A program made the translations under genes and the position numbers. Below are positions 10,433 to 30,399 of a stretch of 50,202 nt of DNA, one piece after another. The notes below the pieces were generated by a model, which saw only the letters and a program-made list of their open reading frames with translations, was not told the DNA's origin and searched no databases. Positions within the stretch are counted from its first letter, which is position 1. The number at the start of each line of letters is the position of its first letter. Source of the stretch: a virus; IMG/VR virus record IMGVR_UViG_3300049846_002441, positions 1 to 50,202 of that record; one strand, given 5' to 3'.

Positions 10433-11806
10433 ATGTCCGCCGCATCCCCGAGGCCCCCCGCGCGCGGCAGCGCCCGCCCGACAATCCACCCGCCATGTTC
10501 TGGGGTGCGGGATTTTGAAGACGGCATCCACTATGATGCAAGCGTAAACGCCGGGGGTGGCGGCTTTATGTCGACCAAAGTCCCGGGGGCCGCCGCGCGC
10601 GTCGGCGCCCTGACGGATTTCTTCACTTTCACCGGCGACAACAAGTCCTACTATCGCGGCTCGGCCGGGCTACTCATTCCATCAATCACGAACACCCCGC
10701 GCATCGAGTACGACGCTGCTGGGGGCGTTTTTGGGTTGTTGATCGAAGGGTCGAGAACGAACTCGCTTTTGCAAAGTGAGGATTTTTCAACCACCTGGAC
10801 GACTACAAACGCCGCTGTGGCGCCAAACCAAACCGCGGCACCGGACGGCGCGACAACGGCCGACCGGCTAACCGAAGATGCGACCGCCGCCACCAACCAC
10901 TACGTCACGCAGGGCGTCTCAAAAGCAGCGGCGGCCATCCAATACACAGCAAGTGTGTGGCTGAAAAACGAAACCAAGGGCTTCGCGCACCTTCGGATAG
11001 CCAACGGCGCCTTGACAAACGGCGCCGGCATCGGCGTCAACCTCTCGACGGGGGCGCTTGGGGGTGTATACACGTTCGGCGGCAGCCCATTCACCGGCGC
11101 ATCTGCCAGCGTCGTTACGTATGCAAACGGCTGGTACAGGGTCATACTTACAGCGACGTCGGAGGCGGCGAGCACTACCCTAGCGACGCAAATCTTGCTG
11201 GCAACAGGCACGAGCTCCGGTGATGTGACGTTCAACGGCGACGGCTCATCGAGCATATTCATGTGGGGCGCGCAACTCGAAACGCCGGTTGCGTTTGCAT
11301 CGTCTTACATTCGCACCACAACGGTGAGCGTGACGAGGGCCGCCGACATCTGCACGCGGGCGTTTGGGGGCGAGGTCAGCCAGACGTCAGGGACGATATT
11401 TGTTCGGGGGCGGTGCGGCGTGAACGTATCGGGCGCCGACTACGCCATGGTTGAGATTGACGACGGTACAAACAACGAGCGCATAAGCACGCAGCGCTTC
11501 GGCGGTGGTGCGAACTATCGCTTTCAGATCAATGACGGTGGCGTCTCGCAGGGGGTTTTGACCAGCGGAACCCTTGCCGATCTGACTGAGTTTAGGCTCG
11601 CTGCGTCGTATGCCGCCAATGACCTGGCGTCGGTCTTAAACGCAAGCGCCCTGCAAACTGACGCGAGCGCGACACTACCGACCGTCACGACGATGCGCAT
11701 TGGGACGCGCTTTGGTGGTGGCGATCCGTTTTTCGGCCACATCCGCTCTATTGATTACTGGCCAGAGCGAAAATCCAATGGATTCCTCCAGCAACGTGCG
11801 GCGTGA
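10433..11806 (+). CDS. Receptor-binding / head-spike-type adhesin
   Basis: 457 aa. Recognised from phrases typical of phage spike and adhesin proteins with carbohydrate-binding beta-sandwich domains: FGLLIEGSRTNSLLQSEDFS near 90-115, ASVWLKNETKGFAHLRI near 180, FMWGAQLETPVAFASSYI near 270 and a second jelly-roll half ending in IRSIDYWPERKSNGFLQQ. It probably binds host surface sugars. It lies far from the main virion operon, in a region with replication and methylation genes. The start follows the previous stop with no gap and no separate ribosome site. Confidence 0.75.
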   Translation: MSAASPRPPARGSARPTIHPPCSGVRDFEDGIHYDASVNAGGGGFMSTKVPGAAARVGALTDFFTFTGDNKSYYRGSAGLLIPSITNTPRIEYDAAGGVFGLLIEGSRTNSLLQSEDFSTTWTTTNAAVAPNQTAAPDGATTADRLTEDATAATNHYVTQGVSKAAAAIQYTASVWLKNETKGFAHLRIANGALTNGAGIGVNLSTGALGGVYTFGGSPFTGASASVVTYANGWYRVILTATSEAASTTLATQILLATGTSSGDVTFNGDGSSSIFMWGAQLETPVAFASSYIRTTTVSVTRAADICTRAFGGEVSQTSGTIFVRGRCGVNVSGADYAMVEIDDGTNNERISTQRFGGGANYRFQINDGGVSQGVLTSGTLADLTEFRLAASYAANDLASVLNASALQTDASATLPTVTTMRIGTRFGGGDPFFGHIRSIDYWPERKSNGFLQQRAA

Positions 11807-13961: not shown

Positions 13962-14264
13962 ATGCAATTGTCGCTGATGACTCCGAGAGAGCGTTATTTG
14001 GAAATCATCGAGCGGGCGGCGAGGCGACAGGGTATAAGGGCTGAAGACGTCCTTAGGCGAAACCGCGAACACACCGCGATCGCGGCGCAGACAGAGGCGA
14101 TGCGCGAGATCTGGGCGGTAAATCCCCACATGACGGTTGTCCGCATGGCGCAGATTCTCAGGCGCACACCATCCTCGGTTTGTGAGGCGATGAAGCGCGC
14201 CGGGATACCGCCACGCACAAAGCGCGCGGGGGTGCCGCGGCAAGTAGTGGGCGCGGCCGAATGA
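13962..14264 (+). CDS. DnaA domain IV-like helix-turn-helix protein
   Basis: 100 aa; ATG 13962 (ATG 13977 also possible, no strong ribosome site for either). The core ERYLEIIERAARRQGIRAED, then RRNREHTAIAAQTEAMREIW and TVVRMAQILRRTPSSVCEAM follows the C-terminal DNA-binding domain of DnaA. Such stand-alone domains occur beside replication genes in alphaproteobacterial phages. It may bind the phage origin or compete for DnaA boxes. It overlaps the next replication gene by ATGA, which supports a shared job. Confidence 0.72.
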   Translation: MQLSLMTPRERYLEIIERAARRQGIRAEDVLRRNREHTAIAAQTEAMREIWAVNPHMTVVRMAQILRRTPSSVCEAMKRAGIPPRTKRAGVPRQVVGAAE

Positions 14265-14800
14265 GCCTCGATCTTTTTCCAGACCTCCCAACAAAGCGCT
14301 CGCGCGATTTAGACGCTGAGTTCGAGCAGGTTTGGAGGGCCTTGCCGCGTCGCAAGATCGATCCGAAGATGGAGGCCCGGCAGGCGTTCTACGCGCACTT
14401 CAAAGCGGGAACGTTGCCGCCGCTCGAGGTCATCCTTCTCGCGGCCAAACGCTATTCGGCACATCAACGCAAAGAAAAGACGGCAGACAAGTTCTTGCCG
14501 CACACACGCAAGATCATCCGTAATAGCTTTTGGGTGGACTGGAACGGGGATGAAGCTCTATCCGCGCGCTCCGCCCCCGTCGCCGATTGGGCGGACGGGC
14601 ACCCTAAGTGGAGTGCGTTCAAGCAGTGGTACGTCGGGATCCACGGCCTGGATGAGTGGCGCAAAATGTTCTGGGGCAGCAAGCTCGAGGGTGACTACAC
14701 GGTGGTGGTCCCATCTTCGCGCGACGCTCAGCTAATCGACATCAAATGCGGTCGACATTTACCCAAATTTTTCGATCGCGAGATTCGTATTCAATACTAG
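14261..14800 (+). CDS. Phage replication protein with DnaA domain I-like C-terminus
   Basis: 179 aa. The N-terminal half (FEQVWRALPRRKIDPKMEAR, then LPPLEVILLAAKRYSAH and TRKIIRNSFWVDW) is the helical module seen in phage replication initiators. The C-terminal part (KWSAFKQWYVGIHGLDEWRK, then VVVPSSRDAQLIDI and FFDREIRI) resembles the N-terminal DnaA fold that loads helicase. Together with the preceding domain IV-like protein this suggests a split DnaA-like initiator that recruits the host replisome. It ends in TAG; the same frame stays open for another 100 codons. Confidence 0.68.
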   Translation: MSLDLFPDLPTKRSRDLDAEFEQVWRALPRRKIDPKMEARQAFYAHFKAGTLPPLEVILLAAKRYSAHQRKEKTADKFLPHTRKIIRNSFWVDWNGDEALSARSAPVADWADGHPKWSAFKQWYVGIHGLDEWRKMFWGSKLEGDYTVVVPSSRDAQLIDIKCGRHLPKFFDREIRIQY

Positions 14801-16227: not shown

Positions 16228-17400
16228 ATGTCGCTGCAGATCATCAAATCGGCCGCGCGGCCGGGCTTGCTCGAGGGCAACGTCCCAGGCCGCTCGGTCA
16301 GCGCCTCGAAGTTGGAGCGCTGGCTCGGCCGCGACGAGCTCGAGCGCGTCAGTGCCGCGATGAAAGACTGGTACGGCCCACCAATCGCGCTCGACGGCGT
16401 TCCGGGCAAGGTGTTCGCTCACCGCGGCGGCGACTTCCGTGGGGATCTGCGCGCCGGTGCGTTTGCGTCGAAATGGGACGCGGCTGAGGCCGCACTTCAG
16501 CGCTTCAACAAGGCGATGAAGCGCGCAGCGAAGCGCTCGCGCTTGCAGATGAACAACTTCGCGTCGATCTCCGACCTTTACGCGGAAATGTCGTCCGGTA
16601 AGCGCTTCGATTTCAATTTCCAGAAAGTCGGCACCACTGGCGTGGTCAACGCGACCAACACGCTTTGGTTCGTCGGCAATCAGCCGGCCGCCGGCGCCGC
16701 TGCCGGTGCGGCGCCGGGCGGAACGGTCCCGACTGACGCGACAACAGGCGCCTTCCCGTACACCAACCCGTCCGGTGGGGACACCCTGCACTTTTTCGGC
16801 GCCAACCCGAACGCAAGCGTCATCCCAAACACGTTGCTGCTCTACGATCGCCTCTTCAGTGTCACAAAGACGATGAACTCGACCGCCACGGAGGCCGTCA
16901 CGGGTGTTCCGACGCGATACCAGTCCGGCACCGACACCAACATGGACTACATCGGCGGGAACTTCCTCATCATCGAGTGTCGCACAGCCCTGCCTGCCAC
17001 CGCTCACAACTGGACAGTCTGCACCTACACCGACCAGGCCAGCGCCGCATCGACGCTGCCGTCTGTGACCGGCAACGCGTCCAACATCGTCAACCGCTTG
17101 GATCAGCCGGCCGGCACGTGGTTCAGCCCGCTTGAAACCGGCGACGTTGGCATCAAGGCGCTGACGCAGATGCAGTGCTCGGCACTCGTAGCATCAGGCG
17201 CCATCGACTTCACGATTGGCCACCCGATTGCGTGGATGCCGTGTCCGATCGCAAACATTGCGTGCAAGGCCGGCGGCGTCACCACAGCGCTCGATCTCCG
17301 CCGGATCTTCGACGACGCGTGCCTGGCGTTCCTCGAAATACTCAAAGGCGCAACCGGCGCGACCACCTACACCGGCGATATGACGCTCGTTTGGGGTTAA
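16228..17400 (+). CDS. Phage structural-type protein, 390 aa
   Basis: ATG 16228 after GGAGGC. The N-terminal 110 residues are helical and basic (KAMKRAAKRSRLQMNNFA). The rest is beta-rich and Gly/Thr/Ala-rich, including TLHFFGANPNASVIPNTLLL, MNSTATEAVTGVPTRYQS and a C-terminal DLRRIFDDACLAFLEI. The central pattern recurs in virion-type hypothetical proteins of many tailed phages, but I know of no assigned function. It lies between two other probable virion proteins. Confidence 0.65.
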   Translation: MSLQIIKSAARPGLLEGNVPGRSVSASKLERWLGRDELERVSAAMKDWYGPPIALDGVPGKVFAHRGGDFRGDLRAGAFASKWDAAEAALQRFNKAMKRAAKRSRLQMNNFASISDLYAEMSSGKRFDFNFQKVGTTGVVNATNTLWFVGNQPAAGAAAGAAPGGTVPTDATTGAFPYTNPSGGDTLHFFGANPNASVIPNTLLLYDRLFSVTKTMNSTATEAVTGVPTRYQSGTDTNMDYIGGNFLIIECRTALPATAHNWTVCTYTDQASAASTLPSVTGNASNIVNRLDQPAGTWFSPLETGDVGIKALTQMQCSALVASGAIDFTIGHPIAWMPCPIANIACKAGGVTTALDLRRIFDDACLAFLEILKGATGATTYTGDMTLVWG

Positions 17401-18935: not shown

Positions 18936-19562
18936 CTACACCTCCAATACGACTTGCTCAGGCACCGGCACAAACTCCGGCCGCTCCAGTGCGCCGCCGA
19001 TCGACAGGAAGGGTGAGCGTTGAAACGGCACAGGCACCTCGCACGCCTCGACGACGCCCGGGATCTCGCACAGCCAAAGCCGCTTGGTGGATCCGTCGAG
19101 CATGAGAACGTCAGTTGCCGGGATCTTGCGGCGCGCGCACTCGCGCCTGATCCGCGCTCCGCGCTCCGCGCGCACCACCGCATCAATATCGGGGACGTCT
19201 TCACCCCGCCCCGCCCGGAAATATGTGCCTGTCACCACCGACTCACCATCGGCGAAGCGCACCAACACCGCGCGCGGCTCAAGGAACGTGTGCCGCTTCG
19301 GCCGCACCACAATGCCCGCCGCGTTCTTGCGGCCGAACCACTTCGGCACAAGCCGATATGTGGCGCATGCCTCACCATAGGACAGCCGGGTGTTGAGGCG
19401 CGGCACGGGCGCTTTGGGCGAGGCTTGCTTCTGCATCTGACGCTCAAGAGCACCGTGCGACGACGCCAGCCGTTCCGCCAACTGGCGCCAATGCTCCGGC
19501 GTGTCGATCTCCACTGCCTCTTGCAAGGCGCGCTGCGCCGCCGTCATGATTTGGGTATTCAT
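18936..19562 (-). CDS. Hypothetical protein, 208 aa
   Basis: ATG 19562 overlaps the stop of the methyltransferase gene (ATGA). The N-terminal 70 residues are helical (TAAQRALQEAVEIDTPEHWR). The rest looks beta-rich, with a basic patch (GRKNAAGIVVRPKRHTF) and FADGESVVTGTYFRAGRGED. No known domain recognised. Placed directly after the DUF3560-methyltransferase, it may act with that enzyme (inference). Confidence 0.7.
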   Translation of the reverse strand: MNTQIMTAAQRALQEAVEIDTPEHWRQLAERLASSHGALERQMQKQASPKAPVPRLNTRLSYGEACATYRLVPKWFGRKNAAGIVVRPKRHTFLEPRAVLVRFADGESVVTGTYFRAGRGEDVPDIDAVVRAERGARIRRECARRKIPATDVLMLDGSTKRLWLCEIPGVVEACEVPVPFQRSPFLSIGGALERPEFVPVPEQVVLEV

Positions 19563-21304
19563 GCCGACACCGTGAGCAGAACAGTACGAACGTCCGTTCC
19601 GGCGAACGTGCCCGCCGGCAACTCCTCCCAACTGTCGGCGATGGGCTGAAGTTCGCGCTGTTGCCGGGGCCCGTTCGCGCAGATCGCCACAAGGCGCCCT
19701 CCCGGCTTCAAGAACTGCCGCGCGTGCAAAACATGGCGAATGTCCGAACCGTTCTCAAACGGCGGGTTCATCAGCACCGCATCGAACTTTCCCAAGTCAC
19801 CGTTGCATTGCAAAAAGTCCGCGCGGTGAATGTCGAAGTTGTCCGAATTTGCGTACATCTGCAGATTGCGCAGCGCCTCCAGCCTTTGAACAAGCTGGTC
19901 GTTGATTTCTACCGCCACCACACGCACGCAATCTGCGCCTGTGGCGTCATCCCAAATCGCCTTAACGAGCTCGCCGGTGCCAGCGCTCGGCTCTAGGATC
20001 CGCAACCCACTCGCCCGCTTGCCCGGCAGGCGCGCCACCATCTGCCGCGCCACGTCGCGCGGCGTCGGGAACAACTGGTTCGCCGTCACCACCTGCACGC
20101 CGCCAGCCTTGAGCGTTTGCTTGATGGCGTCGAAGTCTGTCGGCGCCGAGGGCGCGCGCGGAGCTTCGGCCGGCGGCGTGCCGATCTCGGCAAGATAGAA
20201 GCCGCAGCCGCAGCCGGATTCGGTCAGGCGCCCATCTGCGCGCGCTTGCTCAACCTCTGCCCTCGTCATGACGCCTTTTACCTTGTCGAGTGGAACGATA
20301 GAGGGAAATGTGCGCCCACGGTCGCCGCTGTATGACATGCGCACCGACACCGACACGCGGTTGACCTTGCAGACATACGCCCAACCCCCGCGCGTGTGCC
20401 CCGGCGCCTGCCAGCAACGCACAGCGCCGCCGACTTCCGGGCCCTTCTTGTCAGTCTCCAGGCCGCCCGCTTCACCCAGCATGGTGCGTTCATACAGAAG
20501 GCGGTTATTGGTGTGGTCGAGCCATCGTTGCCAGTGCTCGATCACCGCCGGGAGCGCCACCCGCCGCTGACGCGCAACTTCGGCGACGTCCATATTCCCG
20601 CGATCCGGCTGAAGCGCGCTCCATGCAGAGAACCGCTTACCATCCGGCGCCGTGATCGTGTCGCCGCACGACTCCGCAACGTTCGCGTAAGCGGTCGCAA
20701 TCTCGCGCGTGAGGCTGTTACGCGACCAAAACGCAAGCCGCTTTTCAGCCTCGGTCTTTTGCTTCGCGAACTTCCGCGCGTCAGATTCAAGCCCCTTGAT
20801 GCGCCGCGCGCGCACCGCCGGCAGTTCCTTGTATTTGGCGTGAGCGACCGCACCGGCGGCGCGCGCGACCCAATATTTCGAGGTTTCCCAAAGCCTAACC
20901 GTCTTGTTCATGCCCGATTTGATGCGCTCCGCATCGCGGCGCGCCCGCCGCTCCGAGTGGTGGCCCACGAGAATCGGCTGACCAAACGGGATCCCGTCAG
21001 CAATCGCCGCGACCGCGTCGCGCGCCCGCGCTGCATCTGCGAGCCGCTTTTCGCCGTAGTCGTCGAAGCGTGCCGCTCGATCTTCGGCGCGCTCGGTTAG
21101 CGTTGTGTCTTCGTCGCCGATTTCACCGCAGAGCTCGAGCAGTAAGTCCGCACGGCCCGGCGTCCACATCGGCGCCACAAAAAGTTCTTGCCTGGGCGCC
21201 CACTTGAACCCGGCCGCCTTCACGCGCGCATAGGTTCCCGCGTCAAGCCGCGTGCTCGAATAGAGCCGCAATTTGTTGTCCTCTGGTGAGTATGTCGCCT
21301 GCAT
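19559..21304 (-). CDS. DUF3560 domain fused to class I SAM-dependent DNA methyltransferase
   Basis: 581 aa. ATG 21304 follows the TTGCAACGGGAGG leader. The N-terminal half (about 1-290, with AAGFKWAPRQELFVAPMW, ADGIPFGQPILVGHHSERRA and KSGMNKTVRLWETSKYWVAR) is a DUF3560 region known from plasmid and phage proteins. The C-terminal part has SAM-binding motif I LRILEPSAGTGELV and the catalytic NPPF (513-516) of N6-adenine or N4-cytosine methyltransferases. Probable role: DNA protection or anti-restriction. It is the second DNA methylase of this phage. A TTAC-N7-TTAA box lies 45 bp upstream. Confidence 0.88.
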   Translation of the reverse strand: MQATYSPEDNKLRLYSSTRLDAGTYARVKAAGFKWAPRQELFVAPMWTPGRADLLLELCGEIGDEDTTLTERAEDRAARFDDYGEKRLADAARARDAVAAIADGIPFGQPILVGHHSERRARRDAERIKSGMNKTVRLWETSKYWVARAAGAVAHAKYKELPAVRARRIKGLESDARKFAKQKTEAEKRLAFWSRNSLTREIATAYANVAESCGDTITAPDGKRFSAWSALQPDRGNMDVAEVARQRRVALPAVIEHWQRWLDHTNNRLLYERTMLGEAGGLETDKKGPEVGGAVRCWQAPGHTRGGWAYVCKVNRVSVSVRMSYSGDRGRTFPSIVPLDKVKGVMTRAEVEQARADGRLTESGCGCGFYLAEIGTPPAEAPRAPSAPTDFDAIKQTLKAGGVQVVTANQLFPTPRDVARQMVARLPGKRASGLRILEPSAGTGELVKAIWDDATGADCVRVVAVEINDQLVQRLEALRNLQMYANSDNFDIHRADFLQCNGDLGKFDAVLMNPPFENGSDIRHVLHARQFLKPGGRLVAICANGPRQQRELQPIADSWEELPAGTFAGTDVRTVLLTVSA

Positions 21305-21348
21305 TCAAAACCTCCCGTTGCAAGTTTGAAACTGTACCGCCGCACGCG

Positions 21349-21363
21349 TTACCTATTCGTTAA
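21349..21363 (-). promoter_or_regulatory. CtrA-like box TTAC-N7-TTAA
   Basis: Read leftward: TTAACGAATAGGTAA. It is 45 bp before the methyltransferase start and overlaps the end of the 124-aa gene. One of five similar boxes. Confidence 0.4.
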
Positions 21364-21727
21364 CGAGTGCGCACGTGATAACGAATTCGCCCGCGTCCCC
21401 GGGCGATGCGATCACCTCCAAGTGGTGAAGCGTCGTTCCGAACGGCCCGCGCTCGACCGTGTGCCACATCCTCACCGTGAAGGCGCTTTCCGGCGCGCGC
21501 TCCATTGCCGCGCGGATCGCCACGACCAGCAAGCGCCGCCGCGCCAAAGGCCACAGGCCGCAACGCATCTCCTCAGGTGTGGCCATGACGCAGGCCGCCC
21601 ACGCCGCCCGCGTCAACGCTACTTTGCACTTGATGCCGAACAGGCGCGCATCGGTGGTGACGTCCACTAATGTGCCGTCCGTCACCGCCTGCGCCCACGT
21701 GGGCGCCTCCTCATCCACAAGCGCCAT
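21353..21727 (-). CDS. Conserved small phage/plasmid protein, 124 aa (DUF6573-like?)
   Basis: ATG 21727. The segment DARLFGIKCKVALTRAAWAA followed by a basic helix and a beta-rich C-terminus (AFTVRMWHTVERGPFGTTLH) recalls small mobile-element proteins grouped as DUF6573, which often travel with DUF3560 methyltransferases. That assignment is tentative. It precedes the methyltransferase in the same direction with a 48-bp gap. Confidence 0.65.
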   Translation of the reverse strand: MALVDEEAPTWAQAVTDGTLVDVTTDARLFGIKCKVALTRAAWAACVMATPEEMRCGLWPLARRRLLVVAIRAAMERAPESAFTVRMWHTVERGPFGTTLHHLEVIASPGDAGEFVITCALVNE

Positions 21728-21821
21728 GACTTACCGCCTTCCCGATCAGCTGCGCCACGGCAATGCCGGCCAACACGAGCAGCGCCAAGACCAGCGCCGC
21801 GTCACCTAAGCGCCGCCGCAT
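21711..21821 (-). CDS. Possible overlapping membrane micro-protein, 36 aa
   Basis: ATG 21821 lies inside the end of the 78-aa zinc-ribbon gene and the stop lies inside the start of the 124-aa gene, filling the otherwise noncoding gap. It reads MRRRLGDAALVLALLVLAGI and then a short polar tail: a basic start and one transmembrane helix. GAGG sits 4 bp upstream. Real expression is uncertain. Confidence 0.4.
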   Translation of the reverse strand: MRRRLGDAALVLALLVLAGIAVAQLIGKAVSHGACG

Positions 21822-22042
21822 TGCGCCTCGGCTTCATGATCCGCCGGGAGGGGTTCGCACGAATAGGGCGCAACATCGGCGCCACAGGCCGGGCAGTCGT
21901 CATGCTCACCACTCTCGCGCATGATTTCGACATAGCGGTGACCGCACGCGCACGCGAAGCGCGACTCCCAATCGCACGAACGATCCCCATCACGCGCCGC
22001 CCGCGCGCGAAACTGAGCCCTCAGCGCTGCCATAGTTTCCAT
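21806..22042 (-). CDS. Zinc-ribbon protein, 78 aa
   Basis: ATG 22042 after GGAGGTAGAG. Cysteines are arranged CACGHRYVEIMRESGEHDDC and CPACG, giving a two-knuckle zinc ribbon, preceded by a helical start (METMAALRAQFRARAARDGD). It may bind nucleic acid or a host protein; no family named. Confidence 0.72.
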   Translation of the reverse strand: METMAALRAQFRARAARDGDRSCDWESRFACACGHRYVEIMRESGEHDDCPACGADVAPYSCEPLPADHEAEAQCGGA

Positions 22043-22054
22043 TCTCTACCTCCA

Positions 22055-22086
22055 GCAAAAACAAAGGCCGCACACAATGCGCGGCC
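22055..22086 (-). terminator. Rho-independent terminator (leftward)
   Basis: Read leftward, GGCCGC pairs with GCGGCC and is followed by TTTGTTTTTG. It lies between the TTAA box at 22109 and the start at 22042, so it could act as an attenuator. Confidence 0.75.
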
Positions 22087-22108
22087 CCTGGAATTTACAC
22101 CGAAAAGG

Positions 22109-22123
22109 TTAAGAGAGCGTTAA
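22109..22123 (-). promoter_or_regulatory. CtrA-like box TTAA-N7-TTAA
   Basis: A perfect TTAA-N7-TTAA 67 bp before the zinc-ribbon gene start. It overlaps the stop codon of the 63-aa gene. Confidence 0.45.
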
Positions 22124-22311
22124 GCCGCCTTCGACGCAACCAGCGCGCGGTGCGCGTCTTCCAGCACGCGAATCCGCTTGTTGATGTCTCTAACCGCGCG
22201 CCTGTTCCCGGCGCGTATCAACTTCAGTGTTATCAGATCGACCAGCGCTTGACGCACCACTAAGGCGACCTCGCCCAATTCCTCGGGCGTGAATGTGACG
22301 GTGCGCTTCAT
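22120..22311 (-). CDS. Hypothetical helical protein, 63 aa
   Basis: ATG 22311 overlaps the previous stop. It starts MKRTVTFTPEELGEVALVVR and continues as a charged, probably coiled-coil helix (NKRIRVLEDAHRALVASKAA). No family recognised. Confidence 0.7.
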   Translation of the reverse strand: MKRTVTFTPEELGEVALVVRQALVDLITLKLIRAGNRRAVRDINKRIRVLEDAHRALVASKAA

Positions 22312-22709
22312 CCGTATTTGACCTCGCGCATGGCGATGCACTGCAAGAAGACGTCCGCTGTTATGGCGTCTTCATCCTCTGCCAGCCACGCGGCGAAGTG
22401 GTGCCCGTGCTTCTCCGCCATGTAAGTAATCCCTTTGCCCATGACTTTCGGCGTTACGAGGTGGCGCTTGATGTTATCTCCCTCCACCTCTTTCGATTCG
22501 TCGAGAATTTCCAACACCTCGAATTGCCAGTCTGGGGCGTTGTAGAAGAGGGCGTTGGCGTACCAGTAAGGAAGCGCCTCCGCCACCTTGAGCGAATGAG
22601 AAACCGGAAGCACCCCCGCGCACCACGCGCGCGTCATGTGGTTCTGTTCAACCGCTGCGCACATGATGTCGGCGATCCGTTTCGGGGTGATTTCAAGGGT
22701 GATTTTCAA
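22308..22709 (-). CDS. Conserved phage hypothetical protein, 133 aa
   Basis: TTG 22709 is preferred because GGAGG lies 7 bp upstream, within the end of the 78-aa gene. I recognise a widespread phage family by the C-terminal block: ITYMAEKHGHHFAAWLAEDE, DAITADVFLQCIAMREVKYG. The N-terminal part (ITPKRIADIMCAAVEQNHMT) and a central aromatic PYWYANALFYNAPDWQFEV also fit. Function is unknown. Confidence 0.8.
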   Translation of the reverse strand: MKITLEITPKRIADIMCAAVEQNHMTRAWCAGVLPVSHSLKVAEALPYWYANALFYNAPDWQFEVLEILDESKEVEGDNIKRHLVTPKVMGKGITYMAEKHGHHFAAWLAEDEDAITADVFLQCIAMREVKYG

Positions 22710-22711
22710 GC

Positions 22712-22948
22712 TCAGCCCTCCGCCCGAATCGACCGGCTGACCGGCCGGAACATGCGCGCGATCCGCCCGCACTCGCGTTGCTCGTTTAGATCGTCGGCCG
22801 CCCAAGCGGCCGCAAGATCCCGCGCGAATTGGTGCGCCTTCACCTCCGACATTTTCAGGCCCTGCAGTTCGCCCTCGTAGTAGACGGCAAACCCGCCATC
22901 TTCCGCGCGGATCAACATCCGTTCGCGATAGTAGAAAAACGACGCCAT
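22712..22948 (-). CDS. Hypothetical protein, 78 aa
   Basis: ATG 22948 after TTGCAACGAGGAGG. The first half looks beta-rich (MASFFYYRERMLIRAEDGGF), then comes a helical region (KAHQFARDLAAAWAADDLNE). It ends in an Arg-rich tail. No family recognised. Confidence 0.72.
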   Translation of the reverse strand: MASFFYYRERMLIRAEDGGFAVYYEGELQGLKMSEVKAHQFARDLAAAWAADDLNEQRECGRIARMFRPVSRSIRAEG

Positions 22949-23025
22949 AACGCGCCCTCCTCGTTGCAATGCGGCTCGATTGCCGCCCTCCGGGCCGATC
23001 CGAAGACCGGCCCCAAAGGCGAAAT

Positions 23026-23199
23026 TCAGTCCCGAATTCGCATCAAAAGGCGCGCTACTTCCAGCCGGTCAGCCTTCACGCCTTCCACTTCGTCGCCGGG
23101 CTCAACGTCGCTAAGCCACGAGTCGAGAGCGTCCCGGTAGCATTCCAGGGCATCCGTTAGGACACGCTGCTCATTCTTTGTGAACTGGCGCACCTTCAT
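23026..23199 (-). CDS. Hypothetical acidic helical protein, 57 aa
   Basis: ATG 23199 overlaps the upstream stop (ATGA). MKVRQFTKNEQRVLTDALEC is followed by an acidic loop (SDVEPGDEVEG) and a final helix. Resembles small phage proteins of unknown function. Confidence 0.65.
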   Translation of the reverse strand: MKVRQFTKNEQRVLTDALECYRDALDSWLSDVEPGDEVEGVKADRLEVARLLMRIRD

Positions 23200-23360
23200 G
23201 CAAGCACCAATAAGAACAGCGCCGCCCACAGGACGGCCGTCACCGCCAAAACACCCACAACCACGCCCAAGGGCAGATATCGCAGCGCCTCGCTCGTCGG
23301 CACCTCGCGCCGCGCGCGCGCCGCTTGGAACGTGGGGCAATCATCGAGCTCGAAGCGCAT
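23196..23360 (-). CDS. Single-span membrane protein, 54 aa
   Basis: ATG 23360 shares one base with the previous stop (TGATG). A polar basic start (MRFELDDCPTFQAARARREV) precedes a strong transmembrane helix (LPLGVVVGVLAVTAVLWAAL) that reaches the C-terminus, so the N-terminus is probably cytoplasmic. Function is unknown. Confidence 0.65.
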   Translation of the reverse strand: MRFELDDCPTFQAARARREVPTSEALRYLPLGVVVGVLAVTAVLWAALFLLVLA

Positions 23361-23560
23361 CAGGCTCCCCGAATCTCGTAAAGTGCGCGCGTTATTTCTT
23401 CCAATTGCCGGACTTGGAGCGCGGCCGCGTGCGCGCTCGCCAAGGTCGCCCACACTTGCGCCTCAGCAAGCCGGCCCGCCGAAATTGCCGACAAACAAAG
23501 GCCCGCCGTCTCCTCGTATCGGCCGGCGATCTCGCTCGAATGTGCGAATTCGAATTTCAT
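23360..23560 (-). CDS. Hypothetical helical protein, 66 aa
   Basis: ATG 23560 overlaps the preceding stop. All-helical, Ala-rich sequence (YEETAGLCLSAISAGRLAEA, then QVRQLEEITRALYEI). No family recognised. Confidence 0.65.
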   Translation of the reverse strand: MKFEFAHSSEIAGRYEETAGLCLSAISAGRLAEAQVWATLASAHAAALQVRQLEEITRALYEIRGA

Positions 23561-23769
23561 TGGCGCGCACCCCTGATAATGCGCACCGTGAACGCTTCGC
23601 CGTTGTCGAGCGTTACAATCAAGTTGTTGGGGTCACTCGCGTCAACGCACTCGACCGTAGCGCGGAAGCCCGTTTCTATCAGGTCTCCGCTCGCATCTTC
23701 GGTGAATTCGAAGCATTCGCGACCCTCTATAAAGTCGCGAATCAGAATTCCAATATCCCGCGTGTTCAT
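23557..23769 (-). CDS. Hypothetical protein, 70 aa
   Basis: ATG 23769 after TGCAACGGAGAG. Helix then beta-rich: GILIRDFIEGRECFEFTEDA, ETGFRATVECVD, NLIVTLDNGEAFTVRIIRG. First gene of a coupled four-gene series after a terminator and a TTAA box. Confidence 0.68.
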   Translation of the reverse strand: MNTRDIGILIRDFIEGRECFEFTEDASGDLIETGFRATVECVDASDPNNLIVTLDNGEAFTVRIIRGARQ

Positions 23770-23829
23770 GTTCTCTCCGTTGCAGCAAAGCGCACACACG
23801 CGCCCGCACACCATCGCACCACAAAAACC

Positions 23830-23844
23830 TTAAGAAACCGTAAA
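23830..23844 (-). promoter_or_regulatory. CtrA-like box TTAA-N7-TAAA
   Basis: Its sequence (TAAGAAACCGTAAACG) is almost the same as the box at 24794. It lies 61 bp before the 70-aa gene start, just downstream of a terminator. Confidence 0.45.
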
Positions 23845-23875
23845 CGCAAAAAGGGCCCGCGTGTCCGCGAGCCCC
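23845..23875 (-). terminator. Rho-independent terminator (leftward), after radC
   Basis: Read leftward, GGGCTCGCG pairs with CGCGGGCCC across GACA (one G-T pair), followed by TTTTTGCGTTT. It separates radC from the next unit. Confidence 0.85.
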
Positions 23876-23898
23876 TCACAATCGCGGTTTGTGGGCGG

Positions 23899-24447
23899 TC
23901 ACATAAAGCCAAGCGACCGCAGCGACGCGCACCCATTCGCGCCAACGACGATATGATCGTGACACGCGATGTCAACCGCGCGCAGCGCTTCAACAATGTC
24001 TTTCGTCTCGCTGATATCCGCCCGGCTTGGCGATGGGTCGCCGGACGGGTGATTGTGCGCCAAGATCACGCCGGTCGCGTTTAGAACCACCGCGCGCCGC
24101 ACAATCTCGCGCCGGTGTATCCAGCAATTATCAGCCGTCCCCTCGGCCAAAACTTCGTCGGCAATCAGCCGGTTTTTCGTGTCACAATAGAGGACGCGGA
24201 CTTGTTCGCGCGGCAGATCCGCCATCCGCGCCATGAGATACCGCGTCACTTCCGCATAGGACGTCATCGACTCGCGCTTGCGCAGCCGCGCGGCCGTGAA
24301 TTCCTCCGCAAGCGCCAAAATCGCCGCCAACTTCGCCCGCGTGTCGGCTGTCAAACCCTCCGCCGCGTATGCTTGCGAAACATCGCTAAAACCCTCGATT
24401 TCCGCCGTGTCGCCTAACAAAACCCGCAAGTGTCGCAAATTCCGCAC
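23899..24447 (-). CDS. radC: RadC-family JAB/MPN domain protein
   Basis: 182 aa from GTG 24447, which has GGGAGG 7 bp upstream within a TTGCAACGGGAGG-type leader. The JAB/JAMM metal motif is clear: GVILAHNHPSGDPSPSRAD with His131, His133 and Asp144. VLYCDTKNRLIADEVLAEGT is the usual upstream block. RadC-type proteins are common on mobile elements, with anti-restriction or DNA-processing roles proposed but not settled. Length is typical of the JAB core without the N-terminal HhH region. Confidence 0.92.
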   Translation of the reverse strand: MRNLRHLRVLLGDTAEIEGFSDVSQAYAAEGLTADTRAKLAAILALAEEFTAARLRKRESMTSYAEVTRYLMARMADLPREQVRVLYCDTKNRLIADEVLAEGTADNCWIHRREIVRRAVVLNATGVILAHNHPSGDPSPSRADISETKDIVEALRAVDIACHDHIVVGANGCASLRSLGFM

Positions 24448-24489
24448 GTGTGATCCTCCCGTTGCGAAGGGCATTTGAGCGCGAAAGCG

Positions 24490-24504
24490 TTAACAACGCG
24501 TAAA
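24490..24504 (-). promoter_or_regulatory. CtrA-like box TTAA-N7-TAAA
   Basis: 43 bp before the radC start and just after a terminator when read leftward. Confidence 0.45.
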
Positions 24505-24530
24505 CAAAAAGGCCCGGAATTACCCGGGCC
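24504..24530 (-). terminator. Rho-independent terminator (leftward)
   Basis: Read leftward, GGCCCGG pairs with CCGGGCC across GTAATT, followed by TTTTTGTTTA. It ends the 59-aa gene transcript. Confidence 0.85.
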
Positions 24531-24550
24531 CGATTGCTCGCGAAAGCGAT

Positions 24551-24730
24551 CTAGTCGCCGCGCAGAAACCGCACTCGCCACGCTCCACCCAAACCCGCCC
24601 GCGCGTGGTACGCGCGCGCCGCGCGCAGCGTTCGAAATGTGATGCAATCCGCAAACCCTGACACCGGGAACCCTTCGCGCCCCCAATATCTGCCCGAACC
24701 ATCATGCTCGATGTAGTAAACATGTCTCAC
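24551..24730 (-). CDS. Hypothetical protein, 59 aa
   Basis: GTG 24730 with AGGAG 7 bp upstream. It reads MRHVYYIEHDGSGRYWGREG, then a mixed stretch and WRVRFLRGD. The layout (beta start, helix with Arg, final WRV) resembles small host-takeover-type phage proteins without named function. First gene of the leftward region. Confidence 0.62.
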   Translation of the reverse strand: MRHVYYIEHDGSGRYWGREGFPVSGFADCITFRTLRAARAYHARAGLGGAWRVRFLRGD

Positions 24731-24793
24731 GTACAAACTCCTCTTGCAGCGCCGGTCAAAGCCAACTGGCCACCCATCAAACCACCCAAAACC

Positions 24794-24953: not shown

Positions 24954-25424
24954 ATGAAAGCCCCCAAACACCGCGTACGCTACCACGTCCGCCCAACTAC
25001 CGCCCTAACCCGCCTGCACACCGCCTTTATCAAATCCGTCGCCCTCGGCGAGCCCCCAACTCGCGCCGCATCGCGTCTCGCCAAAAACCCCGACCATGCA
25101 ACGCAACTCCTCATGCGCTTCACAACCGACCCGGCAACCCTTCACGCCATAAAAGCCGAAGTCGAACTCCTGCTGATCGTCTACGCACTCCCCATCGCAA
25201 TGGCGACGATTCTCGAAACCCTCAAGCATGGCGGAAAAAACGCATTTGACGCTGCAAAACTCGTTCTAAGGCTCAATCGCGAGCGAATTCATGCTGCAAA
25301 TAACCGCGCAAAACGTGGAGGCGCTGACACTCCACGGGAAATCGAAGCGCTTCAGAGTGCAATTTCGCTCGCCCGCGCGAAGCTGGCCCAGCTGGACGCC
25401 GCCAAACTCGCCGAACGCACCTAA
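24954..25424 (+). CDS. Candidate small terminase subunit, 156 aa
   Basis: ATG 24954 with only a weak ribosome site (AAAGAACG). All-helical and basic: an N-terminal helical region (TAFIKSVALGEPPTRAASRL) and a middle (TDPATLHAIKAEVELLLIVY, then PIAMATILETLKHGGKNAFD) resembling small terminase proteins, and a coiled-coil-like C-terminus (LQSAISLARAKLAQLDAAKL). A small terminase would recognise phage DNA for packaging with TerL (28780). It is separated from TerL by eight small genes, so the call is tentative. Its coding strand is very C-rich, the opposite of the next rightward gene. Confidence 0.5.
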   Translation: MKAPKHRVRYHVRPTTALTRLHTAFIKSVALGEPPTRAASRLAKNPDHATQLLMRFTTDPATLHAIKAEVELLLIVYALPIAMATILETLKHGGKNAFDAAKLVLRLNRERIHAANNRAKRGGADTPREIEALQSAISLARAKLAQLDAAKLAERT

Positions 25425-25732
25425 AGCGCCTGTGAAACACACAAATATAAGCGCGCAAGCGTGAGTCTGCCCGAGTGCACGTGATGCCGCATATTTCCAC
25501 GCGTCCTGCAGAAGTGGTTCTCCTCAAGACTATCGGCCAACAGGGCCAATCGCGGGTTTGGGCCGGTCGCCGCCGCCCGGGCCGGCGCACAGCGAGCGCA
25601 CACCCCGGGGGGAGGGGGCGCGCGCGATCGCGTGAAAGTCAACCCCACCCCGTCACAAATTTTTTGCGCTGTTCATCTATTCAGGGGTGATTTTGTGTGT
25701 GATGTTTTTCGTGTGCAGCGGAGGATTTTGAG
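25425..25732. other. Noncoding gap at the GC-skew switch, candidate replication origin
   Basis: 308 bp without a convincing gene. To its left the plus strand is strongly C-rich; to its right strongly G-rich, although genes on both sides point rightward. It contains a GC-rich block (25560-25632) with a CGCGATCGCG palindrome, then an AT-rich stretch (ACAAATTTTTTGCG, then GATTTTGTGTGTGATGTTTTT) that could unwind easily. A packaging or attachment site is an alternative. Confidence 0.5.
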
Positions 25733-25987
25733 ATGTGCATTACGGTGGATTTGAAGAAGCGGTGTGTTTTGGATGAACTGCTGTCGGTGACGAAGCGTTA
25801 CGACGGGCGGGTTGAGGGTGCGTTTGTGATTGTTGACGAGATTTTGGTGCCGTTGTTGGAGATGGCGGTGAAGTTTGGGATGGACAGTCAGGTGGTGGAG
25901 TTGAAGGCGATGTCTGGTGGGGATTTGCCGGGGGTTTATGCGCGGGATGTTGCGCGACGGATCCGGGAGGGGGAGCGGTTGCCATGA
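25733..25987 (+). CDS. Hypothetical protein, 84 aa
   Basis: ATG 25733 after GGAGG. Mixed alpha/beta sequence (VDLKKRCVLDELLSVTKRYD, then VIVDEILVPLLEMAVKFGMD). Codon third positions are dominated by G and T, as in all genes up to 27212. No family recognised. Confidence 0.7.
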   Translation: MCITVDLKKRCVLDELLSVTKRYDGRVEGAFVIVDEILVPLLEMAVKFGMDSQVVELKAMSGGDLPGVYARDVARRIREGERLP

Positions 25988-26247
25988 AAATCATGGGTGG
26001 GATGGCGCGGCCGAGTTGGGTGGGGTATTTCGAGAGCCCGATATTGGCGCGACTTCAGTATTGGCGCGAGATGAGCGCGCTCCGGGCGGAGTCGGCGCGG
26101 ATCTTTGGGGTGACGCGGGAGCGGATTTCGACGTTGGAGGCGCAGCGGACGCTGTTTTCGACCGACGAGCATATCCGTCGGCGCGAGGTGCCGCCGGGCG
26201 ACGGCGGGATCGTCATTTCTTTGTTCGATGGGGAGGAGGGCGCGTGA
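25984..26247 (+). CDS. Small protein with sigma-70 region 4.2-like helix-turn-helix
   Basis: 87 aa; ATG 25984 overlaps the previous stop. Residues about 36-55 (ESARIFGVTRERISTLEAQR) closely follow the region 4.2 helix-turn-helix of housekeeping sigma factors, whose core is VTRERIRQIEAK and which contacts the -35 hexamer. No other sigma regions are present. It could be a DNA-binding regulator, or a mimic acting on host RNA polymerase. The ending ISLFDGEEGA is acidic. Confidence 0.65.
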   Translation: MKIMGGMARPSWVGYFESPILARLQYWREMSALRAESARIFGVTRERISTLEAQRTLFSTDEHIRRREVPPGDGGIVISLFDGEEGA

Positions 26248-26585
26248 GACACCTCATTCCGGGCCCGATCACCGTCTACGGAGCGGTCGAAAAGATTAAC
26301 ATCGCGGCCTCAGATGAGGTGGGGAAAGTTATCGACCCCGCGGTTTTCTGCGTTGCGAGCGCGCGGCGGGCGGCGATTTTGCGGAAGCTGTTCGATCCGG
26401 CGCGGGTGGTGGTTTTGCAGTTGGGGGCGCCGAAGTTGGGGCGGCGGTTTTCGGCGGTTTACGCTTTTTTCGATGAATTCGGGGAGAGCGAGGAAGACCC
26501 GGTGACGGAATATCGATCGAATTGGCTCGGGGAGATCATGTTGGGGTTGGGGCCGGGGTGCCCTTACGAGGTGACGCTGCTATGA
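26244..26585 (+). CDS. Hypothetical protein, 113 aa
   Basis: GTG 26244 overlaps the preceding stop. Opens MRHLIPGPITVYGAVEKINI; a beta/alpha pattern continues through SARRAAILRKLFDPARVVVL and an acidic FFDEFGESEEDPVTEY, ending GPGCPYEVTLL. No family recognised. Confidence 0.7.
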   Translation: MRHLIPGPITVYGAVEKINIAASDEVGKVIDPAVFCVASARRAAILRKLFDPARVVVLQLGAPKLGRRFSAVYAFFDEFGESEEDPVTEYRSNWLGEIMLGLGPGCPYEVTLL

Positions 26586-26641
26586 CGGTCGAGCAGGTGG
26601 TGCGCGTTGCTTCTGCGATCGAAGAGGCGCTTTTGGGGTGA
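26582..26641 (+). CDS. Possible 19-aa micro-ORF coupled on both sides
   Basis: ATG 26582 overlaps the previous stop (ATGA) and its own TGA overlaps the next GTG. It encodes MTVEQVVRVASAIEEALLG, an amphipathic helix. It may be a real micro-peptide, a coupling device, or the remnant of a shortened gene. Confidence 0.4.
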   Translation: MTVEQVVRVASAIEEALLG

Positions 26642-26844
26642 ACATTTTTTCGCGCAATCCGCGGGTGGTGCCGACGGTCGGTGGGCGCTGTGTTTTCCAC
26701 GAGGTTTGGGTCGGTGAGGAGGCGACGGGGATCTTGAAGGCGCAGATGGAGTCGCATTCGGGGCGCTCGCGTACGGAGTGGTTTTTTCAGGGCCGGGTTT
26801 TCGGCGATCTTGGCGAGGCGATCGCGGCGTGGGCCGAGCGGTGA
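26638..26844 (+). CDS. Hypothetical protein, 68 aa
   Basis: GTG 26638 overlaps the micro-ORF stop. Beta-rich then helical: RVVPTVGGRCVFHEVWVGEE, RSRTEWFFQGRVFGDLGEAI, AAWAER. No family recognised. Confidence 0.65.
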   Translation: MNIFSRNPRVVPTVGGRCVFHEVWVGEEATGILKAQMESHSGRSRTEWFFQGRVFGDLGEAIAAWAER

Positions 26845-27212
26845 TGGAAGTCAGACGAGCACCGCGCCATTCGATGTTCGTTCTGGACGAACTTGGTGAC
26901 GTTCCGTGGCATCTGATGCGGGCGTGGGCGGTTGTTGTGCCGGCGCACAAGTTTTCGGCCGCGCGGCATGACACGCACCGGCGGTGTTTGCGGTGCCGGG
27001 CGTACCGGCGCGCGGTCGAGCGCGGGTTTGAGAGCGCATGGTGTGATGGCAATCCGTGGGCGCGGGGGTCGGCGGAGCCGGGAGTGCCGAATTCGTTCGC
27101 GGATCTCATTGCGTTGGCGCGTCCACCGGCCGTGCCGCGCGGGGATGTTTCGTGGCTTGGTTGGTTTGACGACTGGCGCCGCGTTCGGTATGTGGTTCTT
27201 CGCGGCCAGTGA
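26844..27212 (+). CDS. Hypothetical protein with CxxC, 122 aa
   Basis: ATG 26844 shares a base with the upstream stop. The N-terminal half has DELGDVPWHLMRAWAVVVPA and a Cys pair in HRRCLRCRAYRRAV that could bind zinc. The C-terminus is Trp/Arg-rich (WLGWFDDWRRVRYVVLRG). No family recognised. Confidence 0.65.
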   Translation: MEVRRAPRHSMFVLDELGDVPWHLMRAWAVVVPAHKFSAARHDTHRRCLRCRAYRRAVERGFESAWCDGNPWARGSAEPGVPNSFADLIALARPPAVPRGDVSWLGWFDDWRRVRYVVLRGQ

Positions 27213-27232
27213 GCCGCAAAGAGGAGTAAGAC

Positions 27233-27499
27233 ATGCATGATGCGAATGGAAAAGAGCTGAAAGTCGGCGACGTTGTGATGATCCCGGCGGTTATTCGGGA
27301 CATCGGCGCCTCCGACGACTATTGCAACGTCAGCTTGACGTCGGTTTACGGGCGCCGGCCGGACGGGGCGAAGGAGAGCTTCAACGCGATCAACACGGGC
27401 GTTTTGCTGCGCAACAACGACGGCGATACGGTCGACTATCCGGCGGTTCGCGAGGCGCGGCCGCAGGTTGAGCCGGCGCCGCCAGCCGTCGCGGCATAG
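27233..27499 (+). CDS. Conserved small phage protein, 88 aa
   Basis: ATG 27233 after AGAGGAG. The pattern MHDANGKELKVGDVVMIPAV, DDYCNVSLTSVYGRRPDGAK, AINTGVLLRNNDGD is one I recall from many phage genomes, usually in accessory clusters. It looks like a small beta barrel (KOW/SH3-like by its opening). Function is unknown. A terminator follows. Confidence 0.8.
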   Translation: MHDANGKELKVGDVVMIPAVIRDIGASDDYCNVSLTSVYGRRPDGAKESFNAINTGVLLRNNDGDTVDYPAVREARPQVEPAPPAVAA

Positions 27500-27630: not shown

Positions 27631-28779
27631 ATGCCGCAGCCGACAGAATACGTACCGGGGTACGATTTTTCCGAGTTTCAGGGGGCAAATCCGACAACGC
27701 CGCTGCCGGGCGACCGGCTGGACACGGAGTTGAACTCGATCGCGACGTCGGTCGGGGAAATTATCACGAATTTGGGCGCAATTCAGCGCGACGACGGTGA
27801 TCTGGGGAACGCGACGGTCGGGTTCGACCAGCTGGACGCGGACGTTCGAGCGCTTTTTGGCCTGCAAGACGGTGTGCCGCGGGGCCCGTGGGTCACCGCG
27901 ACGGCTTACGTGATCGGGGACTTGGTGACGCAAAGCGGCGTTTCGTACGCGTGCGTTGTTGCGCACACGTCGGGGACGTTCGCGACGGATTTGGCGGCGA
28001 ACAAGTGGATGTCGGTGACGCCGGTCTATACCTCGTTCGGCGCGTCGGTTCTTGGCGCGGCGGACGCGTCGGCGGCACAGACGCTACTCGGGATCTCGAC
28101 GTTCATAAAGACGCTGCTCGACGACGCTGATGCGCCCACCGCCCAAACAACGCTCGGAATTTCCACGTTCATCAAGACGCTTTTAGATGACGTGGACGCG
28201 GCTACGGCGAGGACGACTTTGGGCGTGGTTTCGGCGGACTCGCTGAATTCCTTAACGACGGACGGCACGATCGGCGCACATGCCGACTTGATACCGTTCG
28301 TGGACGCATCGGACTCGAACGCTTCGAACAAGGGAACCGTTTCATCGCTCTTTTCGAACGCGATCACGAACAGCACCGACACATCGCCGGCAACGCCCGC
28401 CAATATGGGCGAATACGAGGTGATGACGCGCAAGATTTCCGACGGCTCGTTGCACAAGATGCTGCTTTCGGAGCTCGGCCAGCTGCCGCCCGGCGCGATC
28501 GTTGCGGGATTTGCCACGATCGACTTTGCGTCGGTCGCGGACAACGCCACGTCGGCGGCCTCGACGATCTCGATTTCCGGCCTTGTGGCCGGCGACTTCG
28601 TGTTGGGCCTGTCCGCGAGCGGAAACATCGACACGACGGCCGGGGTGAAATTGATAGGGTCGGTAAGCGGCGCGAACACCGTTTCGGTTTACCTGCACAA
28701 CGATAGCGGTAGTGCGTTTGACGCTAGTTCGCAGACGATTTACGCGGTTTGCCTGAAGAAGTCAGCCGTCGGCCTCTAA
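27631..28779 (+). CDS. Tail fibre / virion attachment protein
   Basis: 382 aa, ATG 27631 after GGGGG. The N-terminus (EYVPGYDFSEFQG, then LPGDRLDTELNSIATSVGEI and IQRDDGDLGNATVGFDQLD) is the virion-anchor region seen in many podovirus tail fibres. Residues about 85-125 (GPWVTATAYVIGDLVTQSGV, YACVVAHTSG) resemble a small CBM5/12-type carbohydrate-binding module. A duplicated unit with GISTFIKTLLDD follows (about 150 and 175), then a beta-rich C-terminal half. It should help bind the host surface. Confidence 0.8.
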   Translation: MPQPTEYVPGYDFSEFQGANPTTPLPGDRLDTELNSIATSVGEIITNLGAIQRDDGDLGNATVGFDQLDADVRALFGLQDGVPRGPWVTATAYVIGDLVTQSGVSYACVVAHTSGTFATDLAANKWMSVTPVYTSFGASVLGAADASAAQTLLGISTFIKTLLDDADAPTAQTTLGISTFIKTLLDDVDAATARTTLGVVSADSLNSLTTDGTIGAHADLIPFVDASDSNASNKGTVSSLFSNAITNSTDTSPATPANMGEYEVMTRKISDGSLHKMLLSELGQLPPGAIVAGFATIDFASVADNATSAASTISISGLVAGDFVLGLSASGNIDTTAGVKLIGSVSGANTVSVYLHNDSGSAFDASSQTIYAVCLKKSAVGL

Positions 28780-30399
28780 ATGGAAACGTCGTTCGACGCA
28801 TTGCTTGGTTTTTCGCACGACGCGTTGAAGGCGGAGGCGCGCGCGGCGGCTGAGCGCGATCTTTGGAAGCTCGAGCGCCAGGCGAAGATTATCCGTGCAC
28901 GGACGGACCAGATCGACTTCGCCGAACTGGTGATGCCGGACAAGCGTTTCCCGGAGAATCCGAACCTGTCGCGCTACTCGGCGAAGCTGCACCATCGCGC
29001 GATCGCCAAAGCGCTCGAGCGCATCGAGCGCCGCGAACTGCAGTTCGTGATTTTGTGCGCGCCGCCGCGGCACGGGAAATCGCAGCTGACGACCGTCAAT
29101 TTGCCAACGCACCTGCTTGGTGTCGATCCGTACGCAAACATCATCGTTGGGTGCTACAACGACATTCTCGCGAAGGGGTTCGGCCGCAAGATCCGGCAAA
29201 TCGTCGAGAGCGAGGTCTATCACGAGATCTTCCCGGACGTGACGCTCGTGAAGGGCGGCAGGGCCGTAGATCACATGGCGACGGCGCAAGACGGGATGAT
29301 CGCCTGCGTTGGCCGTGGCGGCACGACGACCGGGCGCGGCGCGGACTACTTCATTGTGGACGACCCGTTCAAGGATCGGCGAGAGGCGCGCTCGTTGACC
29401 ATGCGCAACGAGGTTTGGGATTGGTATCAAGACGTCGTGTCGACCCGGCTTATGTCCGACACGGGTTGCATCATCCTCATGATGACGCGCTGGCACGAAG
29501 ACGACATCATCGGCCGCCTGACCGACCCGGACAATCCGCACTACAACGAAGAAGAGGCGGCGCGCTGGACGATCATCAACCTGCCGGCGCTCGCGGAGGA
29601 GGACGACCCGCTCGGTCGCGCACCGGGCGAGTCGCTGTGGCCAGAGAGGTTCGGCCGAGCATACCTCGAGTCGTTCCGTCGCAAGAACCCGGTCGGGTTC
29701 GCCGCGCTCTACCAACAGCGGCCGACGCCGGAAGATGGCGAGTACTTCAAGTCGGATATGTTCGTGACCTACGCGAGCCCGAAAGATCTCCCGAAGCGAC
29801 TTCGCATGTTCGCGGCATCAGACCATGCCGTGAAGTCGAAGCAGAAGAACGACAAGACGTGCATCATCATTGCCGGTGTGTGCGAGCGCGGTCTTGTTTG
29901 GATCGTCGATATCATCTGGAAGCGCATTGACACGCTGCGCCAGGTTGACGAGATGATTGCGGCGCAAAGGAAGCACAGGCCCGTTCGGTGGTGGGCGCGG
30001 AAAGATCAGATTACGGGCTCGATCGGTCCGTTCCTCTACCGCGAGATGCGCAAGGAGCGCGTCTTCATTCCGATGCAAGAGTTCCCAGACACTGAAGACA
30101 AGGTGCAAAAGGCGCAGCCGTTCATTGCGCTGATGGCGCAGCGACAGGTTCGTTGGCCGGCGTTTTTGGCGAACTACCAATCGGCGAAGACGGAGTTGCT
30201 GAAGTTCGACAACGGCGCAAACGACGACGTCGTTGATGCGTGCGCGAACCTTGGTAAGGGCCTCGAGCGCGTGATAAAGGCGAGTGCACCGCGTCAGGTT
30301 GAGAAGGAATACCCAACGAACACCTTTGGGTGGATCATCAACGCGGCGCGGCGCGAAGCGAATGACAACCGCAGGATCTCAGTGTTGAGGACAGGATGA
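28780..30399 (+). CDS. terL: Terminase large subunit
   Basis: 539 aa. ATPase part: Walker A CAPPRHGKSQ (93-102), adenine-side GCYNDILAKGFGRK, GRGGTTTGRGADYFIVDDPF with Walker B (191-197) and coupling motif MMTRWHEDD. Nuclease part: ASDHAVKSKQKNDKT (Asp348), VWIVDIIWK (Asp377) and a C-terminal acidic NDDVVDACANLG. It powers DNA packaging and cuts the DNA. The start follows the tail-fibre stop directly and the end overlaps the portal start. Length is normal. Confidence 0.95.
   Translation: METSFDALLGFSHDALKAEARAAAERDLWKLERQAKIIRARTDQIDFAELVMPDKRFPENPNLSRYSAKLHHRAIAKALERIERRELQFVILCAPPRHGKSQLTTVNLPTHLLGVDPYANIIVGCYNDILAKGFGRKIRQIVESEVYHEIFPDVTLVKGGRAVDHMATAQDGMIACVGRGGTTTGRGADYFIVDDPFKDRREARSLTMRNEVWDWYQDVVSTRLMSDTGCIILMMTRWHEDDIIGRLTDPDNPHYNEEEAARWTIINLPALAEEDDPLGRAPGESLWPERFGRAYLESFRRKNPVGFAALYQQRPTPEDGEYFKSDMFVTYASPKDLPKRLRMFAASDHAVKSKQKNDKTCIIIAGVCERGLVWIVDIIWKRIDTLRQVDEMIAAQRKHRPVRWWARKDQITGSIGPFLYREMRKERVFIPMQEFPDTEDKVQKAQPFIALMAQRQVRWPAFLANYQSAKTELLKFDNGANDDVVDACANLGKGLERVIKASAPRQVEKEYPTNTFGWIINAARREANDNRRISVLRTG

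Follow-up and report, generated by a model that had tools for sequence, protein, structure and literature searches.

A probable DNA-packaging site at the GC-skew minimum of a temperate, P22-like phage genome

The noncoding gap at which the strand composition of this phage genome abruptly inverts is probably a DNA-packaging site, where the DNA is recognized and cut beside the late operon, and the skew itself would then reflect a lineage-specific, strand-asymmetric mutational bias along two divergent arms. We put the probability of this reading at roughly 60%. The window, that is, the whole stretch of DNA analysed (50,202 bases), is the entire virus record IMGVR_UViG_3300049846_002441. Its two ends share an identical stretch of 127 bases, for which reason it was treated as circular, with 50,075 unique bases; the idea that these identical contig ends are the ends of the phage was set aside in favour of an assembly overlap. 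One side of the genome carries genes for an integrase, a RecE-like exonuclease, a RuvC-like resolvase, methyltransferases and RadC, and the other side those for the terminase large subunit (TerL), an internal virion protein and the major head protein. The portal proteins of two related isolates share 37-39% identity with the 690-aa protein encoded after TerL. The window phage is a temperate tailed phage with P22-like late gene order, and a comparison of TerL places Rhizobium phage RHph_N65 and Microcystis phage Mae-Yong1326-1 nearest to it among isolates. The group to which it belongs is large, P22-like and mostly uncultured, with only two sequenced isolates found; viral contigs scanned with one protein at a time, TerL or ORF 24954, yielded no close relatives.

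The gap (25425-25732) extends from the candidate small-terminase gene, terS, to the late operon and contains the minimum of the cumulative GC skew, which falls at 25,606 on the circle of 50,075 bases (25,683 when the circle is detrended, and 25,659 for the G+T keto skew). The initial annotation, made from the letters of this DNA, had reported a flip of skew across this gap, a GC-rich block next to an AT-rich stretch, and the expectation that the global cumulative minimum would lie near 25.5 kb. All of this was borne out: skews of 60-base segments pass from -0.61 at 24,981 to +0.66 at 25,821, and the two compositional blocks are present at 25556-25636 and 25655-25732, respectively. Measured with 1.5-kb arms, the skew contrast reaches 0.331 at 25,607, compared with 0.085 at the runner-up place in the genome, and this value ranks first when 233 phage and prophage loci are compared (the other 232 average 0.077, with a maximum of 0.195; z = 8.4). 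The second-ranked contrast, in L042, was discarded, as it sits within a single long tail-fibre-like gene.

Fourfold-degenerate sites display the same inversion. On the plus strand, their composition is C 0.55 and G 0.14 in the ORF at 24954-25424, to the left of the gap, versus C 0.00 and G 0.73 in the ORF at 25733-25987, to its right. This bias weakens with distance from the gap on both sides, with fitted decay lengths of ~1.7 kb (right) and ~9 kb (left), and it fades to baseline with no flip at the opposite terminus. Within genes every codon position shows the gradient, and so does the noncoding DNA nearby. Since the shift at positions 1 and 2 has the same direction, the pattern resembles mutational pressure rather than codon choice. 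When compared with 20 relatives, the minus-strand genes on the left deviate by z = -3.6 (plus-strand fourfold skew of -0.25, against +0.22 with sd 0.13 in the relatives), and the 1.6 kb immediately right of the gap by z = +3.5. Farther along the right arm, the fibre, TerL and portal genes have skews of +0.40, +0.25 and +0.17, against family means of -0.02, -0.04 and -0.10 (GC above 0.55).

The arrangement of genes around the gap is divergent. Between 18.9 and 24.7 kb the called genes are all leftward, whereas from 25.4 kb until the late operon ends nearly all are rightward. The leftward block (18936-24733, minus strand) holds a DUF3560-methyltransferase gene, radC and small genes, with an unusually G-rich coding strand, and contains a left-facing hairpin (24,531-24,510) that resembles a terminator. 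The product of the minus-strand gene at 19559-21304 is a DUF3560 domain fused with a methyltransferase-like domain, and a 58-aa ORF at 24551-24733 (minus strand) has a strong ribosome-binding site and is followed by the hairpin, on the same strand, just before radC. To the right of the gap, a cluster of small ORFs (25733-27499, plus strand) has an extremely G-rich coding strand (fourfold G 0.53-0.73, C 0.00-0.29), and those ORFs of the cluster that were tested have no homologues in the related loci. It is followed on the plus strand by the gene for a fibre-like protein with a CBM5/12 domain (27631-28779; Pfam PF02839, E = 2.4e-7), which is kept upstream of TerL in 31 relatives, and by that for TerL itself (28780-30399; PHROG 38, E = 2.8e-97), in a gene order like that of lambda and P22. 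The coding strand is thus G-rich on both arms, and the sign of the skew relative to transcription is equal on the left and on the right.

Directly to the left of the gap, and 3.1 kb before terL, lies the plus-strand ORF at 24954-25424, whose 156-aa product is a candidate divergent small terminase subunit (TerS). Against an HMM built from 33 terminase-linked TerS proteins of related loci, residues 16-144 align with the weak score of 14.4 bits, whereas 200 shuffles of the protein reach 11.3 bits at best. Pfam, PHROG and NCBIfam contain no match for this ORF. A single-sequence structural model of the protein is all-helical at low confidence (pLDDT 63), and a fold search with this model gave nothing significant. 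In relatives, a noncoding gap of 238-578 bp is found at the same place after terS, with a GC-rich 60-base block in nearly all of them. No known RNA families, tRNAs or stable fold were found in the gap of the window, and a 20-mer of its GC-rich block had one match, a chance one, inside an unrelated coding gene.

Reading the gaps of these relatives revealed a family element, composed of GRCCCCYGGS, ~42 bases and then a ACAAAATTTTTCGC-like block, and a similar noncoding element follows terS in 19 related phages. In the window, block A, with its CCCC core, is CACCCCGGGG (25601-25610, plus strand), and block B is ACAAATTTTTTGCGC (25655-25669, plus strand), the two blocks starting 54 nt apart. Of the 20 phages, the window counted, 16 have a start-to-start distance of 49-54 nt, a tally that leans towards the element because the B anchors were partly picked by eye. 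Independent of the choice of anchors are the HMM built without the window, the contig scan and the comparison with Mae-Yong1326-1. The top window match of the first of these (nhmmer) is at 25604-25667 on the plus strand and is weak (E = 0.038). The strict pattern had 5 exact matches in 2.9 million viral contigs, one of them directly after a TerS gene and two on contigs that also carry TerS/fibre or portal genes of this phage family. With a two-block weight matrix the window element scores 11.8, against a mean maximum of 12.0 for random sequence, and is still the best plus-strand position in the window; because this score is no better than the random maximum, we base the call on location and on the HMM rank. 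The window element is a diverged copy of the family element.

Mae-Yong1326-1 ties the element to a genome end. Direct terminal repeats of 366 bp were reported for this phage using PhageTerm (PMC9503304), and the exact 366-bp repeat was confirmed in its record. Its TerL is 41% identical to that of the window, a TerS-family gene lies beside the site, and blocks A and B are both present; the phage was excluded from the derivation of the matrix, and its element scores 20.3 versus a null maximum of 18.5. When it is read in the direction of the late genes, the repeat stops between the two blocks, 10 nt short of block B, and this position of the repeat end within the element supports the latter as a terminase cut site. 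By analogy with Mae-Yong1326-1 (sequence L003; PMC9503304), the genome of the window phage is predicted to end near 25,645 (25640-25650). The cos sites of lambda and HK97 are comparable, being noncoding sites at the junction of the genome ends that adjoin the terminase genes and the late operon, but they lie before the small-terminase gene whereas the site in the window comes after it. P22 shares the order TerL, large portal, scaffold-like, coat; its pac, however, is inside gene 3, unlike the window element, which follows terS. As side observations on Mae-Yong1326-1, the gene at 114-434 of OP028995.1 is annotated as encoding a hypothetical protein and matches the TerS family HMM (E = 2e-16), and, despite its P22-like late genes, this phage is described as having a long, flexible tail.

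The steep skew is not a general property of such sites. A skew inversion like that of the window is absent at the ends of lambda, HK97 and D29, at P22 pac and at the Mae-Yong1326-1 terminus (V = -0.05). Across the element, the left-to-right change averages -0.10 in 19 relatives and is positive in 2 of the 19, versus +0.60 in the window, and profiles aligned on TerL or on TerS gave no inversion shared among the relatives. A clear rise at the element occurs in one of the 19, L031 (+0.41). In that contig (IMGVR_UViG_3300027777_000066, 4451-5300), the 500 bp to the right have a skew of +0.43 and those to the left +0.02. The steep skew is therefore lineage-specific, and since relatives that bear the element, as well as lambda, HK97, D29 and P22, are without the inversion, packaging alone is not its cause. 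What remains as the source is a lineage-specific process acting outward, either strand-specific mutation on divergent arms or a replication start at or near the packaging site. Keyword searches of the open-access literature turned up no earlier case in which a skew gradient centres on a packaging site.

With this in mind, one may propose the following model, which starts from the observed skew with its decay, the orientations of the genes and the conservation of the element, along with its position next to terS. TerS, encoded immediately to the left, would bind the bipartite element (25601-25669), and TerL would cut at the element to generate an end of the virion DNA, with the late operon of packaging and structural genes beginning just to the right. 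The mutational bias would act in opposite directions along the two arms that meet at the site, the leftward genes and the rightward late operon, and may be tied either to these divergent arms or to the genome terminus. The decay over ~1.7 kb on the right speaks against this account, as uniform late transcription would not predict it.

The gap had been put forward in the initial annotation as a candidate replication origin. In such a case forks would leave both ways, and the displaced or lagging-template strand would be deaminated most in the vicinity, which would give a G/T-rich leading strand with a decaying bias, maybe at the same place as the packaging site. We regard this as unlikely, though worth keeping in view. 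The negative-to-positive sign, as expected at a bidirectional origin, is indeed seen at the global cumulative minimum, the profile is a two-sided V, and the extension of the gradient to every codon position and to noncoding DNA fits as well. The lineage specificity of the skew also points this way, as does the lack of homologues in the two sequenced isolates for those early-region genes that were tested, the fibre-like gene at 10433-11806 excepted; a different replication system is therefore possible. Bidirectional origins thus resemble the window in the sign and sharpness of the inversion, but they differ from it in their motifs, their adjacent initiator and their plateau of skew. DnaA boxes with one mismatch number 6 versus 11 expected, showing no excess, and there are no iterons; no initiator gene adjoins the gap, the one weakly initiator-like ORF being at 14261-14800; the gradient lacks an origin/terminus plateau or flip; and the gap is already accounted for as a packaging site. 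The origin interpretation of the gap is therefore partly supported at most, and we give an origin coinciding with the packaging site about one chance in five. Rather unlikely, too, is the variant in which replication, or another process that exposes single strands, starts at the packaging terminus and runs both ways, so that the decaying gradient would mark the end of the virion DNA. Resection of the end from 5' to 3', with deamination of the exposed 3' strand, was rejected by reasoning, as it predicts the opposite sign.

Coding direction had been dismissed as a cause of the flip, on the ground that genes on both sides run rightward. On the left this is true of the ORF at 24954-25424 only, the genes from ~18.9 to 24.73 kb being on the minus strand, and the dismissal is weakened in part, since the transcription units diverge around the gap; these leftward genes, together with the hairpin facing left, make divergent transcription a possible contributor to the skew. 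That transcription-associated mutation (on the non-template strand or in R-loops) of two divergent units would explain the skew alone, the gap being special only for its promoters, is nevertheless clearly improbable. It would suit the G-rich coding strands of both arms, but the rightward TerS ORF has a C-rich coding strand (-0.59), although TerS genes of relatives vary widely (z -1.9); the skew falls with distance; relatives of the same layout are without it; and no promoter match was found within 24-28 kb. An even less probable source, and a very improbable one, is a foreign cassette, in which the orphan genes at 25733-27499 would have come from a strongly skewed genome. The bias is steepest in these ORFs, for which the loci tested contain no relatives, but it is not confined to them, as the conserved fibre, TerL and portal genes exceed their own family means and the left minus-strand genes are also biased, with opposite sign on each side. 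The case that would have spoken for acquired cassettes in the earlier proposal was thus not found, and the packaging site with biased arms remains our preferred reading.

A conserved two-block element by terS would allow genome ends to be predicted across this P22-like phage group. Our results also caution that GC-skew minima of phages should not be taken as origins, and the steep, lineage-specific skew centred on the element presents a testable puzzle of strand-specific mutation in phages.

Some further features of these genomes deserve mention. Many relatives (e.g. L049, L002, L045 and L090) have a promoter-like TTGAC...TACA/TATG sequence ~60-110 nt to the right of block B, which fits a late promoter; no obvious sequence of this kind is present in the window. 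The gene at 10433-11806 (plus strand) is a tail-protein-like, fibre-like gene amid the early genes; it is related to a protein whose gene precedes terL in Mae-Yong1326-1 (E = 5e-10). The plus-strand gene at 16228-17400 encodes a 390-aa protein with no Pfam, PHROG or NCBIfam assignment and with relatives of up to 65% identity in 62 viral contigs; in L172, such a relative is located a few kb beyond a TerL relative.
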